A stretch of DNA of 64,000 bases, taken from Mucidula mucida. Lineage: Eukaryota; Basidiomycota; Agaricomycetes; Agaricales; Physalacriaceae. Numbering within the stretch: the first letter of the stretch is position 1; the number at the start of each line of letters is the position of its first letter. The position numbers were made by a program, and so were the translations under genes. Under the pieces are notes generated by a model. It worked only from the letters and a program-made list of their open reading frames with translations, was not told where the DNA came from and searched no databases. This document shows, piece by piece, positions 535 to 10,528 of this stretch. The stretch covers positions 124,001 through 188,000 of the forward strand of contig JADNYV010000044.1 in assembly GCA_015501055.1 (NCBI GenBank), given 5' to 3'.

Positions 535-1866
535 TCACCACCGAACAGAGACCTGTTCCACAAAGATTGACGAGGAGAGATTGATGTTGTCATATCCAAA
601 CATGTGCGGTTGGAAGGAGAACTCGCTAGCGCGCGCCAGCACATGAGTAGCAAGATTTGCGATCGTGCTGAGCGTGGTAGTGAATGAGGTCGAGAGACTG
701 GAGTGGCTGAGCACTTCTATCATCCTTCGTGACGCGCCGGTGGCCCACGCAAACAGTGAGAAAACGAACTGCAACATGGAGGACGCGTTAGACCGGACGT
801 GGAAAGCCTGTACCGTGATTATATTCCTCACCTGTTGATACTATTAGAGTCGATAATAATGGGCCAGCCACAAGCAGATCAGACATACCAGGTTGTCTGT
901 TTTGACCTTGTTCTTTCCAGACTGCTTGCCCTGCGTTGCAGCCTCCAAGATCGCGTACCACCAAGGCATCATGTCTTGACCCTCGATTATGATATCAAGA
1001 GCTCCCTCTTTCTTGGATCCAAACATGCTTCAAATGTCCCAGGTCTTGAGAAATTCGGGAGTGACATGTGCGACGTTCATCGACAACCGCGCCTTGTTCG
1101 CCTCAAACTCTTCCGCAACCTGCTTACAACACATATCCAGAGCGAAAGGAGCCATCCATTCCATAAACCGCAACTGACAGTGGAACCACATGAGAGATAA
1201 AATGAACATAAAGAAGCGAGAGTCTTTCCGATAGAACCCATTCTGCTGGGTAGTGTACCTCACACTACGTCGATCCATGACGGTGTAGAAGAACTCGCCC
1301 GGACTGAGCTTGACCTCATCCAACTTCTCCAGGACCTCGGCTACTCTTTCACAAACACCTGGTGTCGATATCGGGTGAGGAAATCCTTCGACAGTGCGCG
1401 TCGTGGGGAGATCCGATAATTTAGGCACCGTTGACGCGTCGGGAATGAGTGACGATGGGAGAGAAGGATTGGGTGACTGAGAAGGAGGATCTTGGGGTGA
1501 GACATCCTCCATAAATATGTCTTCATGTCTGCGATTGACGTCTCCGGGCTCTGATAGCCCCGATGACTGATCATCGTGCATAGATGGTGTGGGGGAAGTA
1601 GGACGCGACCGCGTATCAAATTGCATCCGGAATGGGACCTGGGACGTCGAGGGCGACACTATTCCATCCCAGGCAACATGTGTTGGCGTCTGTGCGGATT
1701 GGAATGCGGATTTGGGTGGCCTGCCTCGCGGTTTCTTGCCAGAAACAGAGATTACTGATTGTTGGTTTGTACCGGGTGTGGCAGCGGAAGCAAGGAAATC
1801 GGGGGGTGAAATCGGTGTATTTGGTGTTAAAACACTAAAACTCCCAGCCGACGAGGGAGTCTCCAT
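535..1866 (-). pseudogene. DUF6589-domain transposon protein, broken copy
   Basis: Starts at ATG 1866 with a Ser/Pro-rich low-complexity N-terminus that contains an AT-hook-like KKPRGRPPK. A globular part follows. The frame is interrupted by TGA at 1030-1032 and then continues in the same frame (SMFGSKKEGALD). A 57-nt intron (888-832, GTATGT..CAG) precedes an exon reading FSLFAWATGASRRMIEVL and GYDNINLSSSIFVEQ, which aligns with LGLFFKTNGTSSRVIKML and IFDNINIYLRKFQQ of the gene at 5348-8212. This (Y/F)DNIN block is characteristic of the DUF6589 family of basidiomycete transposon-associated proteins. The C-terminal half is missing. It faces the helicase relic at 1-480, the same arrangement as in the intact element next door. 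Confidence 0.7.
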
Positions 1867-2261
1867 GTTCTAGTGGTAGTTTGAGACGCAAACGGTGAGT
1901 CAAGATCTACGTCCGTATATAGTATATAAAAATTCGGACCGTTCCCTCCGACTGTGGCAAACAGAGCCAAAACATGTTCACGCCAAATTTAAACTCCAAT
2001 TTACCTGGCCTTCTGTATTGACGCTTGCTCATTACAGAAGGTTGGTTACCTGGCTACGTTGCACAGGTCGGGGGCGTTACGGTCCATAGTAATCGAAGAA
2101 AAATTCAAAAATTCTAGTATTTAATGATAAATTTTCCTTGTTACGGCCGTGCCGCCCTCGGGGCCCTCTTGCGAGTTCTGACCGGAGCTAAATGACAATG
2201 CAGCTAAATACCACCTTGGCGGTGCTTGTGCCGTCTCACTAAAGTGCAACTATAACGCATA
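1867..2261. other. Non-coding spacer between relic and transposon
   Basis: AT-rich in part, no supported reading frame. It should contain the promoter and the old right terminus of the relic element. I looked for a copy of the TAGGTTCGG/CAAGCCCC terminal motif and did not find one, so the relic's end has either decayed or belongs to a different terminal family. Confidence 0.4.
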
Positions 2262-2270
2262 ACACCACAC
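2262..2270. repeat. Target-site duplication, left copy
   Basis: ACACCACAC directly precedes the terminal TAGGTTCGG of the transposon. The identical 9-mer follows the right terminus at 8684-8692. The match extends 2 bp further (TA) on the outer left and inner right side, so 9 bp with TA-starting termini and 11 bp with an asymmetric terminus are both formally possible. The 9-bp reading keeps the inverted repeats symmetrical. Confidence 0.85.
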
Positions 2271-2400
2271 TAGGTTCGGATCAAGCCCCTTCTCACTTGG
2301 ACCGGATGTTTGGTTGTGTTTGACGTGTTTGGTGGTTTGGTCGGTCCTTCGTGAGAAGGGGCTTGTTGCAGAGTGACGATTTCGGAGGGCTCTTCGTCGT
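2271..2400. repeat. Left terminal inverted repeat with hairpin
   Basis: Matches the right end in inverted orientation over TAGGTTCGGA-CAAGCCC, then after the hairpin over GGGGCTTGTTGCAGAGTGAC versus GGGGCTTGCTTCAAAGTGAC and GAGGGCT(C)TTCGTC. The hairpin arms are CAAGCCCCTTCTCAC (2282-2296) and its perfect complement GTGAGAAGGGGCTTG (2351-2365), with a second inner pair GGACCG (2299-2304) / CGGTCC (2342-2347). The loop is GT-rich. Confidence 0.8.
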
Positions 2401-2696
2401 CATGTAGCTCCCTCATTTCCCACTCTTTTTACACATTTGACCACTCTAATCAACACTCCTTAACTCAACTTAAATTTGTCTCTACTCGCATTTCTTAAGT
2501 TTTACTTTAATTCAGACTATAATCCAAGGTCTTTTGGCTGCTCAACCGTGCTAGGGCTACCAGGTCCACCCAAGTTGATAATTCTGGCTCACGGTGTGTG
2601 GTCCTCAAACTTCTCTGGGGCACTGCCAAAGGCTCTAGACACGTCCTAAACTGATTTATTCCATCTAGATTTAATTTATTTCTATATAATTCCACC

Positions 2697-5471
2697 ATGC
2701 CTGCTCCTCCTACCTCTCCTGCTAAGTCTCAACGTGTTCCGAGCCCGCCGCGTCGTAAATCGTGTTCACATGCAGGCCCTCGTTCATCCCTTCCTGCCCT
2801 CAACCGCCTCCAGGGCATCCGCCAACTCCCAAAGTCACTCTCTGCAGACAGTATTCAGACGCGTCTGAAGGACCGGCTCAATATGTCGTATCTCCCCGAT
2901 GAGTGGCAAGGAGAGCTAGTCAGCCATGTTTTTGCAGGATATGATGCTGTTGTCTGCGCTGGCACCGGCTATGGCAAGAGTCTGACATTTGAGGCGCTAG
3001 CGCTTTTGGCAAAGAAGGGCAAGGTCACCATCATCATTTGCCCACTCAAAGCCCTCAAACGCGACCAGGTAAGCGATTCTCTGTTCTCAATAAATTTCTA
3101 TACTCACATGTAGTATAGGCGCATCAAGCCGCACAAAAAGGTCTTGATACTGTTATTCTTAATGAAGACACGACAAAGAGTGACGCGACACTCTGGAAGC
3201 GCGCGCGTTTATCCACCCAAATTGTATATATGTCTCCAGAGATGGCGCTTTCGGACAGTTTTGGGAATCTCTGGGCCGATAGGGAAGTTTCGACAGCGGC
3301 TGACCGCCATTATTGTCGACGAGGCGCATTGTATTGACGACTGGGGCGATAATAAGTTCCGCCCACTGTACCGTAAACTCAACGGGCTTTGGGCTTTTAC
3401 TGGCCAAGAAGTCCCCATTGTAGCCTGTACTGCGACGTGCTCAACGTCAACGTTCACCGCTCTCTGATCAACACTTGGTTTCGGCAATCGTCCATTCTGG
3501 GGGGTTGATGTTGGATGTGACCGCGCAAACCTCTTCTTCATGACTCGCACTCTCAAACACCCAAAGAATCCTCTTCTTGAGGTTCTTAACTTCCTACCTG
3601 CCAACATCAATTCGAAAATGACAATGTTTGACATTGATAAAGGGATCATTTACTTGGACTCCGTTGCGGGCTGCCAGGCTCTGAAGAATGAGATACAAAT
3701 GCTTACCGCCTCATCTTTGTGACTGTGTGTATGCATTCTCGGCATGCCCTCAGCCCGTGCAAAGGACATGGTATGGAAGGGGTTCTCCAATGGACAGATT
3801 CAAATCCTGGTTGCAACGGATGCAGCAGGCATGGGCTGTAATGTGCCCGACGTTGTATATACCATCGTCTTTGGGTGTTTGAAGACCTTCTCTTCTGTTG
3901 CGCAAAGATGGGGTCGGTGGGACGCACCATGTGACTGCGGGAGTGTGCATCCTTCTTGTTCCCCCTTGGGCATACCCTCCGTCCCTCCCCGCTGTTGCTC
4001 CATCCTTGCAGCGACTGCGAGGACCGCAGAAGACACCGTTGAGACCAAGGCTGATGTTGCAAAACAGGGAGCACTTGACAAGCCGTTGCTTAAATTTCTG
4101 ACTTTAAAGCAGGACAGTATGTTCAGATACTCTATTCTGTTAATCTATACTTACCAGAAGAATTTAGAGCATTGTTGTCACCGCTTTTTCTGTGAAAGCT
4201 TCAGGCCTGACACTGGGTTAACCATTTATGATGGATTCCATTCTACGGTTCCCACAGGAAGTGGCTCACGCGCTTCGGCTGCTCCGTACCAGATGACATG
4301 GATCACTTTACCACCTGATCCTGCGTGCACACCACCACGCAAGCGCTGTTGCGATTTGTGCAACCCAACATATGCTCAAAAGTATTGTGCTGCCGATCCG
4401 AAAGACCCTCAACTATACCGCTATGCCGCAGACTTCATTTATCCTGCAGCTACACCCCCGTCACGCCCTTCCTCCTCGCTCTCCATTGCCTCTGATGCTT
4501 CACAACACAGTACATCCAGCTATTATTGCCCCCACACCGCATATCAAGAGCGAGGTCTTCCTAAAAGCGAAATACAGCGTTTTCAAACGGAGTTAGAGGA
4601 GCAACGCGAATTGATGTGGCGTGCCCATGGGTCAAGTCCGTTTCTCTCCCCAGATGTGTTCCTGCCTCCAAAGCAGCTTAATGCATTAATCAAAGCGGCT
4701 CCCAAGTTTGCTAAGCAGACAACGACAAACGTGAAATCTGTACTTGCCGTTATTAAACTTGATTTTGTGTCCAAGTTCAACCTGATGGAGCTAGCGCGAG
4801 CCATTTCTGAGTGGTGTGAATGCTTCCCATCATTCCTCGAACACCAGCCTCTCAGCATCGCCCTTCGAAAAAGTCTCGTGTCGGGGATGATATCAGTAAT
4901 CTTTTCCTGCCTCCGACCCACCGCGTCTGATACAACTGGTCTTTTTGCCCTTGATTTCCAATACAACCGTAGCCTCATCACCATTAACGCCTGCTTTGGT
5001 TTCACACTACGACCACGTCCTAACTTCAAGAGCTCTGGAGGCCCAGAAGCCTCTTCTACTCCATACCTGGATCTTCCCATACACTGGGTAACAGTAATCC
5101 TTATTCACATCTCAAGCAGTTTACCCCACAGCCACGCCCACCTTCTAGGATCCCGCTATCAACGTCTAGAGGCAGGATATTCCCACAATCAACGTCCGCG
5201 CAATTACCTCACCCATGCCGGTATCAACATCTACAACAGTTGCCTCGCTCACGCCACTCTCAACCCCTCTCAATCAGAACCCATACCGCCATCTGACAAA
5301 CTCACAATTCTCTGTGACTCCACCTCCGCCTTTTCAATGGAAGTGATTTACTGGAGATCAACCTCACCCGTGTCAAATTCATCACCGCCGCCAAGTCCAC
5401 CAAAACCATCTATCGCGCCATCATCATTGCTGAATAGGTCCTCCCGGGAATTGAATTCCAACGGATTCTGA
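2697..5471 (+). pseudogene. RecQ-like superfamily 2 helicase of the transposon (frameshifted)
   Basis: Start ATG 2697 follows a TA-rich leader. Exon 1 has a basic Ser/Pro-rich N-terminus, then the RecQ-type lead-in DEWQGELV, Walker A AGTGYGKS and motif Ia ICPLKALKRDQ. An intron begins at 3069 (GTAAGC) and ends near 3118. The next exon reads VYMSPEMAL, shifts frame near 3275-3290, and continues with IIVDEAHCIDDWGD (motif II, RecQ DEAH box). It shifts again after VACTATC (motif III). Motif V, ILVATDAAGMGCNVPDV, and a damaged motif VI, AQRWGR, lie at 3804-3920. A C-terminal region has a zinc-binding-like CCDLCNP. A 575-codon open stretch runs from 3744 to 5471. At least three frame disruptions make it a pseudogene. 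Such helicases are common near mobile DNA in Agaricomycetes. A role in unwinding transposon ends is inference. Confidence 0.8.
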
Positions 5472-8212
5472 TCAACGGCATCAAAGGCTGTGCCATTATC
5501 GAGGCAAGTGTCTCGAATTTGTTTGTGTGCGCCTTCGTTGCTAATAGGATAACCAACTGCAGGATTAAATGTTGTACTCTTCAGGAAGTCGTGGAGCTTG
5601 CCGTCCTGCCATGCTTGGGCACCCTCGACTAAGATGTCAAACACCGCAGAACGAACTGGCTGCTGCTTGTTTGATTTGCTGGGCTTCTGGGGTGCTGGAA
5701 TGAAACGACTCTCGGCTGCATCTTTTGCAGGTGTGTGCATTCCCTTATTGACCATCTGTTCGACCAAAACCCTAAGATCTTCATAGAACTGTGCTGCTTT
5801 TGACCGGCGAGAGCGATCCTCATCCCCGAAGAACTGTGCTACAAGGTGGGTGATGTCTCAGAATGCTTCAACGCATGCCGACCCTTTCTCCATAATATAC
5901 CGGATGGTGACACCGTTTCCAGTAGAGATGAAGACGCGCTGTGCAGTAATATTAATCAATATGTAAGTGCTTTTAAATAATATCCCACCTTGACCCAAAA
6001 GTTGAGCTGCTCTAGGTACAAATCTGTTGCAATGGCACGGCCCTCTTCGTCCCATCCACTATAAAACTAGGCGCGTTCTAGCGCCGCGCGAGAGGCCTCT
6101 GTTGTCTCGTATTTCTACTTGACCAGGACCTCCGCACATTCTCGAGCGTAATTATGCTGGCCGGCGCCACGAAACGCTAAGCATCAATATTTCATGACTC
6201 AAATAACTTGCCCGGCATCTGCATAGCTGACGGCATGTTTGAACTCGCAGAAGAAGAGAGCATCGCGCATGAAGAGGACTGAGTGTGCTAACCAGTTGTC
6301 TTTGCTCTCCTTCGCTTTCCGTGCAACTATTGTGGTTGTGAACTCATTCTGGATCTCTGTTGCTAAACTTTTCACCTCGTCAAAGTCCGGCCTCCATTTG
6401 GAAAGCTTCGACCACTGTGTCCACCCATTCTTGAGCCTATTTCCATAAGTGAGTATGTTATTACTACAGAGTATGAATTTTACTTACATGACGATATGTA
6501 GGATCCAAGCAATCAACGAGTGTCAAATGAGTGCCTTTGCAGCAGTGTAGTTCGGCTTCTTGACATCCCACTTCCGCCGCAGAAGAGCCTTGTGTGCAGC
6601 AAGAGATGTGGGATCCCGAACCTTGTGTCCAAAGTGTGCGCATGAGAAGGTGGGTGTTTTGTAGCGCGTAATGCCACAGGGTACTGAGTTCATCCAGATA
6701 CTCCAATCAATCCATAGGTGTAACATCGTTGATTCGGTCTCGTTGTGCGGCGCAAGTATTGTTGGAGGTCAGCCAGTCCCCAAGCGAAATCTGTACTTTC
6801 CCTGACCACTCCTCTTCCGACAGGGTGCTTTGCTTCTGCATCTCCTCAAACACTTGAACAATGCCCTTCTTGGATCCTTCGTTAACATTGAATACACCAA
6901 ATGGACGTGCATCTGTTTTCTTGGGAGGCAAAGGTCGATCCTTCGGCATCATTGCCTTCACCTGTTCCATCATCTTCGTACAATCCTTCCACTTCTCATT
7001 TCCTAGACAATAATGAGCAAGGAGCAGTGCAATCATTGCGGTAAACGCTTTTGTTATGTGCGCGTCATCATCAGCAGTGGGAAGGATGTCGAGCGCTGTC
7101 GCCTGTGCACGTTTCCCATGCAGGGCTTTTTTCGCTTCCAAATCTTGAGTTGCGTTAACATCTATACCATCTGAATCAATGGCGATGATGGCGGAGTTGG
7201 TCGCATGGATCATGGAGTTTTGGTTGGTGAGTCGCTGTTGGAATTTGCGGAGGTAGATGTTGATATTATCGAAGATGAGAGCCGAGAGCTGATTACTGGT
7301 GAGGAGTCTAACAGCGAAGGCAATGGCATCTACATTGATTTGTTTCTTCAGTCTCTCAATGGTTGTTCCCGAGATGCTCAGTCCAATGTTGCTGAGCATC
7401 TTGATGACGCGGGAGCTTGTGCCATTCGTTTTGAAGAACAGGCCAAGTATTAGAGGTAAGACATTTGTCCTCTGATTGCGGACAAATGCTAACATCATGA
7501 TTGACAGTAGTACAGCCTAGGCAGCAGTTAGTAGGGATAATATGCAACATGATCAGTAACATACGAATGTTGGATTACGAGCGAATCCTGCTTGACGCTT
7601 CTACGGTTTCTCCTGTGGCGTCTGTGTATCCTCATTCGGATCATCATCCCAGTCGGAGCTTGCGCTCTCATCCTCTGACCCGGACGACGACGACTCCTTG
7701 GCTCTGTTATAGCGATGGTATCGGTTTGGAAGTGAGGCAAAATGGTGCAGCAGCGACCACATAAATGGTGCCAACTGTTGGAGTTTGTCGGAGATAATCT
7801 TGGGCTGAAGAATCTCCTTCACTGATGCCACGGTCAGGTCCTTGATCTTTATCTTGAAGGCCGTCTCAGATATGAGCTTGTTGCTCTCCTCTTCAGCTAT
7901 TTCCAGAGCACATGCCTGTACCCAAGTGTGCAGACGGGTTCGGGCCCTCGAGAAGCGGTCATGCCATAGATTATACACCGTTTCTGGTGGCCAGGGTGTT
8001 GTAGACGTCCCCATGAACATGCCTGCTTGTTGCTTGACTGAAGGGATGTCACTTGAGAAGACAAAGGAGAGGTATTCGGCCAGGGAAAGTCCAAGAAACA
8101 TGGTGAGGGAGAAAATGAGGTGAATTCGTTCTGTGAGTGATTTCTTCTTGTACTCATCACCCAGTTTCTCCTTCCAGAACGTTTCTCCATATGAGAGTGT
8201 AGCGGGAGGCAT
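5348..8212 (-). pseudogene. DUF6589-domain protein of the transposon (broken)
   Basis: Reads from ATG 8212 with an N-terminal helical domain and an acidic Ser-rich linker. It has an intron at about 7555-7508, then the DUF6589 core: MLAFVRNQRTNVLPL, LGLFFKTNGTSSRVIKML, IFDNINIYLRKFQQ, HATNSAIIAIDSDGIDV, ALHGKRAQATALDILPT, KKTDARPFGVFNVNEGSKK, GDWLTSNNTCAAQRDR, LWHYALQNTHLLMRT, RDPTSLAAHKALLRRKWDV and, after an intron, SVLFMRDALFFCEFKHAV. The last exon (5767-5348) is Lys-rich then Gly/Asp-rich. In-frame stops occur at 7601-7603 (TAG), 6707-6709 (TGA) and 6523-6525 (TGA), with a one-base shift near 6640. The family is of unknown function and abundant in basidiomycetes. It is probably the element's transposition protein (inference from its position between terminal repeats). 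Confidence 0.8.
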
Positions 8213-8566
8213 GATTTTGGGCTCCTATTCTCGCTGTGGCGGCGCTGTCACTTCTTGTGACATACCGTGACAGTTCCGTGCCCCACACTGAAACCTCCGT
8301 CTATTGCTTCATCATGGGCCGCTCATCCCGTCAAGCTCTTAAAATCATTCAGTGACTGTCCTTAACCATCCGCAACGATCCATACTGCATTTTTCATTGT
8401 ATTTACACTCATTCTGTTTTCCACTGCGTGATGCGCTTTCGTACATCTTAGTACTGCCGTAGAAGTCAAAATAAATTATTTGAGGTAGTCGACTACATGT
8501 ATATACATCTTATGAACAATTTTCACCCATGATGCAAGGCAGCAAGACCAATACTCGAGGATGTAG

Positions 8567-8683
8567 ACAGCCTTGACGAAGCCCTCTTAATTTGTCACTT
8601 TGAAGCAAGCCCCTTATGAAGCTAGGACCGAGGTAACGAGGTCCCGTCCGACAGCTTCCATAAGCGGGCTTGTTCCGAACCTA
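8567..8683. repeat. Right terminal inverted repeat with hairpin
   Basis: Inverse counterpart of 2271-2400. The palindrome arms CAAGCCCCTTATGAAGCT (8606-8623) and AGCTTCCATAAGCGGGCTTG (8653-8672) pair with two single-base bulges. The outermost CCGAACCTA (8675-8683) is the exact complement of the left TAGGTTCGG. The stem sequence differs from the left stem apart from the shared CAAGCCCC core, yet both ends keep the fold, which suggests the structure itself is under selection. Confidence 0.8.
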
Positions 8684-8692
8684 ACACCACAC
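8684..8692. repeat. Target-site duplication, right copy
   Basis: ACACCACAC, identical to 2262-2270, directly follows the terminal CCGAACCTA. Confidence 0.85.
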
Positions 8693-8946
8693 CCGTTGCA
8701 CCCATTGGACTTGTTATGGGTCACGTGATGGTTGTATCCATACACTCACGTACAGTATTAGACGCCTTTGTTGTGATAAAATATCCAATGATTATGACGG
8801 AAAAAGCCTCGGGAGGTTAAGATTGATCTCACAGAGGGATGGACTTTTAAGCTCAACTTCCTCTCCAAATAATATACATGTAAAATGAACCCAGTATCGA
8901 CGATACAAGTCCTCACATCTACTAGTGTCCCAGATACTGCCACCCA

Positions 8947-10528
8947 CTAATAAACCCTATCCTTCGCCGCGATGAGTTCACTCTCCACTTTGAAAACACC
9001 TGTTTTGTTCAGCCTATCCACGATAACATCGCCAAACGCGGTTGCTGGAGTCAAGACACCACCTCGCTGGGCGAATTTCGGTAATTTGTGCGTCTCCGAG
9101 GGAAGGAGCGCGAGTGCGCATTCGGCAAGCATTACTGGCAAATATTGTTAACGTCGGTATTATGACCGGAGACAAAGGCTTACTGCAGGACAGGTAATAA
9201 CCGGGATCACCTTTCGCCTTGAACGTGGTGACTGCGTGAGCTTTCCCCGAAGCAGAAGTGGTGACGTTGGTGATATCAAGGAAGCCTTTCTGTACATCTC
9301 TACCAAACAAAATGTAAGCCGAGCAAAGCAAGAAGTCGGAAGCCACATACGCATCCTTTAATCCATCTCCGGGCTGAGGCAAGAGCTTCTTCACGAAATA
9401 ACTCAACTGGATATCGTGTTCAGTTTCGCAGCTATTGATAGAGGGTAGAAACGGCGTACCCCCGGAACAAACAGAGACATCATGCCAAGCATGAGCCCAA
9501 CCGAGAACAGGAAACCATATATTTTGCTGGGCGTAATCATGAACTCTGCATACTCAAAATCGCGTCCATATCGAGCGCGCTGTGTTTCTTTGTTCGGCGA
9601 GGTGATGGCGTTGTATTCGAACAAACCCCAGGAACGTTGCACGATTGCACGATCGACCTGAGACATCATATGATGGCCACCGACGAGTGTACGTGAAGAG
9701 AAAGGTAAGGTGAGAGAGTATACGAATCGGAAGGGCCCATTCGGGGTGCCCACGACTTGCACGACACATTAGCTTTAGAAGGACATGAACGTGGTTGTAT
9801 ACGTACCAGGACTCAAAGCATAGCTGCTGTTCGCCCATTTACGCGTGGCTGGTGGTACAGACTCCATAGCGGTTATTATCGTAGATGCTGTGCCTCCGGA
9901 CATGATGCCTGAAAACTTGCACGCTGAGATGGATTTGCCAATAGGGACAAATGCGTCGCGATCACTGGACGCGATGGTTTTGCGGGAGAGGTAGGTGGTG
10001 ATGTCGCTGGGGATGCAATCCAGGCCGCAGCAGGGAACGATAATGGAGTGGGTTTTAGTAGCATAATAGTCGTATGCTTGAATGATGTCTTTTACCCAAT
10101 GCGCCTCGCCGGTGAGGTCGACGTAGTTTACGCCGTTGCGGACACAAGCGCTGCGTTACGGATCAGAAGAATCACGCAAAAAGGACAAGAGGCGCACCCA
10201 ACGACTGGCGTCCCGTGCAACCAATAGGGACCAACCGTGTTCAGCACGACCTTTGCTGTCTTGACCGCTGCTTCTACTTGATCCACATTCTTGACATCCA
10301 CAAGGAGGACGTCCACATCCTTCGGGAGAGCAAGTTCGGAAACGAGGACGTCCAACTTGGATTGGGAGCGGCCAGCAATGGAAAAGGTGAAAGAACCTCT
10401 TGCAGGGTGAGTCTGCAGGTAACGAATAGTCTGCCGTCCCGTGACACCTGTAGAACAGATAAATCGTTGGAAAAACTTGGCAGAGATAGCCTCGAACCTG
10501 TTCCGAGCACGAGTAAGTCGGTTGGCAT
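8947..10528 (-). CDS. Saccharopine dehydrogenase-like oxidoreductase
   Basis: Six exons: 10528-10498, 10447-10198, 10150-9807, 9755-9460, 9406-9184, 9134-8947. The protein starts MPTDLLVLGTG and continues across the first intron as VTGRQTIRYL, giving a Rossmann GTGVTGRQ nucleotide-binding loop at residues 9-16. GRSQSKLDVLVSEL, LNTVGPYWLHGTPVVGAC and VNYVDLTGEAHWV follow, the standard signature of the SCCPDH/YNR073-type reductase family. The middle contains CCGLDCIPSD. A hydrophobic stretch, YGFLFSVGLMLGMMSLFVPG, near residue 290 may be a membrane or lipid-contacting helix. The C-terminus has GDPGYYLSC. Members are membrane- or lipid-droplet-associated NAD(P)-dependent reductases whose substrates are mostly unknown. 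True lysine-pathway saccharopine dehydrogenase looks different. The gene looks intact and shares a 336-bp divergent promoter with the RS-rich gene. Confidence 0.88.

Follow-up and report, generated by a model that had tools for sequence, protein, structure and literature searches.

A broken AcademH-like transposon in Mucidula mucida whose DUF6589 protein is probably a DDE transposase

A 64-kb stretch of the genome of the mushroom Mucidula mucida (contig JADNYV010000044.1, positions 124,001 to 188,000; here called the window) contains a 6,413-bp unit at positions 2271-8683 that carries a helicase gene and a gene of the family DUF6589. We consider it likely, with a probability of roughly 85%, that this unit is a now broken DNA transposon with two genes that belongs to the AcademH type and uses the DUF6589 protein as its DDE transposase. 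Directly supported are the ends of the element, the target-site duplications (TSDs), an unoccupied relative of the insertion site, the presence of near-identical related DUF6589 elements elsewhere in the genome, the predicted fold of the DUF6589 protein and its conserved D-D-E residues.

The unit is bounded by terminal inverted repeats (TIRs) of 18 bp that match at 17 positions, namely TAGGTTCGGATCAAGCCC on the left (2271-2288, plus strand) and the inverse TAGGTTCGGAACAAGCCC, read from 8683 to 8666, on the right (8666-8683, minus strand). On both sides it is flanked by the same nine bases, ACACCACAC (2262-2270 and 8684-8692). In the whole 64 kb, no other pair of places at least 60 bp apart has both an inverted terminal repeat exact over 10 bp and flanks exact over 9 bp. 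The original prediction, which had been made from the letters of the window, described a unit that ends in TAGGTTCGGA, is flanked by ACACCACAC at either side and contains a convergent pair of genes, and all of these features are present at 2271-8683. It also called the transposon complete. This is correct for the boundaries, but not for the genes. Both of them spread over several frames, and since the helicase gene and the DUF6589 gene are each split by stops and frame changes, the window copy is very probably an old, dead element.

An unoccupied site could also be found. When the flanks were joined with a single ACACCACAC kept, they matched C618:258-498 at 93% over all 240 bases, and the alignment crosses the junction unbroken. 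An empty site with two copies of the nine bases would have argued against an insertion, but the related site has them once. Partial matches to the joined flanks also occur on C172, C282 and C385, so that this site is more probably another copy of a repeat than an allele. For the DUF6589 element at C283, the same kind of search matched only the two flanks of the element itself. The right flank of the window element (8811-9286) shares 99.8% identity with positions 1524-1998 of C618 (L068) across 476 bp, with about 1 kb of other sequence between the unoccupied site and this match; this may be a recent duplication or a repeat. A duplication bordering the 1-kb insert in C618 was examined and proved not to be clean.

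Using the PF20231 profile of DUF6589, we found 30 stretches at at least 16 places in the genome, while 14 control genomes gave no match. Both ends were read at seven of these 16 places; C118 yielded the right end only, and the C788 element, judging by its position, runs off the contig. With two non-autonomous copies described below, this makes nine copies with both ends read, and all nine have TAG...CTA ends and perfect 9-bp duplications. The duplications are nine different 9-mers. In the DUF6589 elements they are ACACCACAC (window), CCTTTAGGC (C283), GGTCAAAGA and CTCAATTCC (two copies at C616), CGAATGAAC (C495), CCATCAATC (C230) and GGTCTTCCT (C205). For the C495 element and the second C616 element, DUF6589 was placed between the ends by position and the interiors were read in part. 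The DUF6589 elements sort into three families with differing end sequences. The C283 element is 99.1% alike to the first C616 copy and the C205 element 99.6% alike to that at C230, which indicates that both of these families moved recently. C230 encodes the M. mucida protein P0006, of which residues 661-833 match at 100% and residues 1-661 at 90% over 735 columns that take in apparent unspliced introns.

The search for further copies with the ends of the window element, proposed with the original prediction, also had a positive outcome. By similarity the left end was found once more in the genome, at C372 (left end 83%, right end 94% over 102 bases), in an element with TGACCAACA on both sides. 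A second copy, at C638, measures only 99 bp and has ATCCTCGTG at either end. Both were located by their ends and not by their duplications, and both are non-autonomous derivatives whose boundaries agree with 2271/8683. The C372 element (L007; it runs from 583 to 8765 when C372:10801-20200 is reverse-complemented) has a Ty3/gypsy-like retroelement nested inside, with a 792-aa open stretch in which reverse transcriptase motifs are recognizable by eye; apart from this, its interior has little in common with the window element. A TIR pattern with up to two mismatches gave 30 matches, compared to 24 in a reversed control. We therefore relied only on the five exact matches: the window and C372 elements account for four of them, with two ends each, and the C638 copy for the fifth. 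At the 15 inexact of the 20 TIR-pattern loci, a second end accompanied by the same 9-mer was not seen within about 1.5 kb, although longer elements are possible. The inexact loci at C88, C360, C395 and C786 were ruled out as independent insertions by their near-identical flanks. A diverged right end (...GGGCTTTTAYCCGATACTA) at C584 (L008, 5294-5362) and C793 (L009, 4420-4480) probably belongs to a related non-autonomous family.

We then turn to the DUF6589 gene, which occupies approximately 5402-8212 on the minus strand (limits inferred from the open pieces). The PF20231 model scored 67.1 bits on a 263-aa open reading frame (ORF) at 6707-7498, and 143.7 and 94.4 bits across the locus. These scores exceed the 27 bits that Pfam sets as cut-off and make the gene a member of the family, even though its two DUF6589 matches contain six stops and one stop, introns being disregarded. 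The read-through window gene as query yielded 208 homologues, of which 120 were listed, and alignment A3 comprises 63 of these 120. Alignment A2 comprises 55 of the 120 listed among 389 matches, plus four from a search with the C689 protein. The latter query gave only these four homologues; an acidic stretch in it had probably taken up the list of candidates. Among the relatives listed in the two larger searches (120 of 389 and 120 of 208), nearly all are hypothetical or DUF6589 proteins from mushroom-forming fungi and their kin.

Despite the breakage of the window gene, a conserved D...D...E set is readable in it. The putative first catalytic Asp (IFDNINIY) is encoded at 7268-7270, the putative second (GDWLTSNN) at 6776-6778 and the putative catalytic Glu (DLYLEQLNFWV) at 6010-6012, all on the minus strand; the respective residue is found in 118 of 120, 116 of 118 and 117 of 120 lettered rows of the alignment. 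The Pfam domain spans residues 351-754 of the homologue P0127, so that the presumed first Asp, at residue 302, falls outside it. AlphaFold models from two DUF6589 subfamilies are closer to DDE transposases (Hermes, P element) than to the other PDB chains compared, and Hermes is the top structural match for both. Profile A2 had no match at E ≤ 1 among the PDB sequences, so the link between DUF6589 and DDE transposases is one of fold only. A viral structure library gave no match worth quoting (best E 0.33), and no mention of DUF6589 was found in the literature searched. Taken together, the modelled fold and the conserved D-D-E suggest that DUF6589 is probably the DDE transposase of the element. 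The original prediction had singled out DUF6589 as the likely transposition enzyme and had proposed to look for an RNase-H-like or HUH fold in its predicted structure; the models support DUF6589 as the transposase and resemble DDE transposases. Its remark that the element has no recognisable DDE transposase does not hold, as the fold prediction points to one, probably DUF6589 itself.

The second gene, for a RecQ-like superfamily II helicase, lies at 2697-5471 on the plus strand and is likewise distributed over several frames, with DEAD box matches at 2697-3113 and 3144-3467 and a Helicase_C match at 3744-5471. The corresponding Pfam E values are 8e-9 and 2e-5 for DEAD (the second under the cut-off) and 7.3e-8 for Helicase_C. 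The first fragment matches the NCBIfam model recQ_fam at 7e-10, under the whole-protein cut-off as expected for a fragment, and finds RecQ5, RecQ and WRN in the PDB; by sequence comparison it is nearest to the RecQ family. The Helicase_C fragment is less specific (in the PDB only Prp28 at 0.0012 and RecQ4 at 0.0029; recQ_fam 4e-5).

The helicase gene (plus strand) and the DUF6589 gene (minus strand) of the window are convergent, and this is also the arrangement at C283, where the DEAD match (6e-6) is barely above the cut-off, and at C205, where the Pfam scores of the helicase are under it. The C205 fragment is 29% identical (2.7e-28) to the helicase at C738, which in turn adjoins a DUF6589 gene and matches WRN at 3e-15. 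At C738 (L011, 608-3959) the two genes are in divergent, not convergent, order. At most other DUF6589 places no helicase was seen within the 1.5 kb of flank that was in view. An open stretch adjoining DUF6589 at C689 (L012, 222-959) and C73 (L020, 1-729) carries a CCDICHP motif that by eye resembles CCDLCNP of the window helicase; a tblastn search with the latter did not match this stretch.

The source paper for AcademH is reportedly that of Kojima (2020). AcademH elements make 9- or 10-bp TSDs and AcademX elements 3- or 4-bp TSDs, a difference that is linked to helicase and nuclease (PMC10045372). AcademH is described from Basidiomycota, Ascomycota and Mucoromycota at low copy number (PMC10799480), and in another mushroom, Marasmius oreades, putative MULE and Academ elements of the non-autonomous kind have been noticed as widespread insertions (PMC8290104). 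A helicase within a TIR element, which the original prediction regarded as unusual, has been reported before, both for AcademH (PMC10045372) and for KolobokH (PMC9587614). The features found here are 9-bp TSDs in nine of nine copies, TIRs, a helicase, a predicted DDE transposase and a basidiomycete host, all of which are shared with AcademH as described in these papers; compared by description only, no difference was found. Our confidence that the window element is AcademH-like is high but incomplete, because it is based on the helicase, the TSD length, the TIRs and the host group rather than on protein sequence. The TSDs are too long for AcademX, and no nuclease model matched the six ORFs of the element that were scanned. 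As a biological type the element is therefore probably already known, which reduces the novelty of the claim.

Other known types resemble the window element in part. The duplications of Kolobok elements are TTAA, while those read here are varied 9-mers. KolobokH, like our element, is fungal and pairs a RecQ helicase with a DDE transposase, and one red-algal Kolobok has its helicase on the other strand (PMC9587614); in KolobokH, however, the helicase is located downstream of the transposase domain, whereas in the window it is a separate, convergent gene. Compared to hAT elements such as Hermes, the window element differs in carrying a helicase.

It is also conceivable, if unlikely, that the DUF6589 elements are a separate superfamily, which resembles AcademH in its helicase and TSD length without descending from Academ transposases. 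Hermes (a hAT transposase) and the P element rank first in the fold comparison, and none of the family models matching the scanned proteins is named Academ. However, the helicase, the 9-bp TSD, the TIRs and the basidiomycete host all fit AcademH as characterized in PMC10045372 and PMC10799480. The capture of a helicase by a hAT or MULE transposon is much harder to defend. MULE duplications are 8-9 bp long, Hermes is the best structural match, and in our reading Hermes and DUF6589 both have an RNase-H core into which a helical segment is inserted ahead of the last Glu. Against this, no hAT or MULE Pfam model matched the proteins P0127, P0130, P0140, P0206 and P0001 at E 0.01 or the window ORFs, and the 9-bp TSDs of all nine copies differ from those of hAT elements, which are usually 8 and also 5, 6 or 7 bp (PMC12730594). 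Least probable of all is that the helicase acts as recombinase or that the element moves in a Helitron-like manner, with DUF6589 as a mere accessory: the helicase is indeed encoded in the window element, at C283 and more weakly at C205, but all nine copies have exact TIRs and 9-bp TSDs, the six scanned ORFs matched no nuclease model, the sub-cut-off names ResIII and Hef fall on helicase regions, and it is DUF6589 that has the DDE transposase-like predicted fold with conserved D-D-E.

For the favoured AcademH-type transposon, the following mechanism may be proposed. DUF6589 would be a DDE transposase of RNase-H-like fold in which a long helical insertion precedes the catalytic Glu. It would bind the TAG...CTA ends and cut them, and a staggered joining of these ends to the target DNA would produce the 9-bp duplications. 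Movement would be by cut-and-paste rather than by copying, and the RecQ-like helicase may aid it by opening the DNA duplex at the ends or in the joined product.

The left end of the window element contains a palindrome just inside the terminal bases. Its outer arm CAAGCCCCTTCTCAC (2282-2296, nt 12-26 of the element) is complementary at 15 of 15 positions to the inner arm GTGAGAAGGGGCTTG (2351-2365), and none of 300 shuffles was as good. Left-end palindromes are located just inside the terminal 10-11 bp also at C283 (11-21/46-56) and C230 (12-27/46-61), compared to 12-26/81-95 in the window. The null model consisted of single-base shuffles of nt 8-150, and for five of eight ends no shuffle was as good; the weaker right-end palindromes were equalled by 9 (window), 10 (C372) and 2 (C230) of 300 shuffles. 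Since the window and C372 have their ends in common and C283 has two ends that nearly copy each other, the independent cases number three. They represent three DUF6589 families with unrelated end sequences (the L042 and L063 ends and the window), in each of which the palindrome begins 11-12 bp from the end. This is possibly a new detail of DUF6589 elements, and as a suggestion, such arms might serve the transposase as a pair of sites or the helicase as a substrate. More speculatively, and in our view doubtful, helicase-bearing DUF6589 elements could form a class with a 10-11-bp terminal block followed by a fold-back palindrome, in which the helicase acts on the fold-back ends or on single strands there; unwinding would then be part of transposition and explain the unusual 9-10 bp stagger, and DUF6589 could be a superfamily apart from the nuclease-bearing Academ elements.

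What is new and useful here is the probable identity of DUF6589 as the DDE transposase of what is very probably an AcademH element. This gives a testable function to PF20231, a Pfam family of unknown function. The recently moved copies, which are 99% alike and have verified ends, could be used for testing the role of the helicase in such elements. Since PF20231 proteins are probably transposases, gene annotation should treat them as transposons and mask them.
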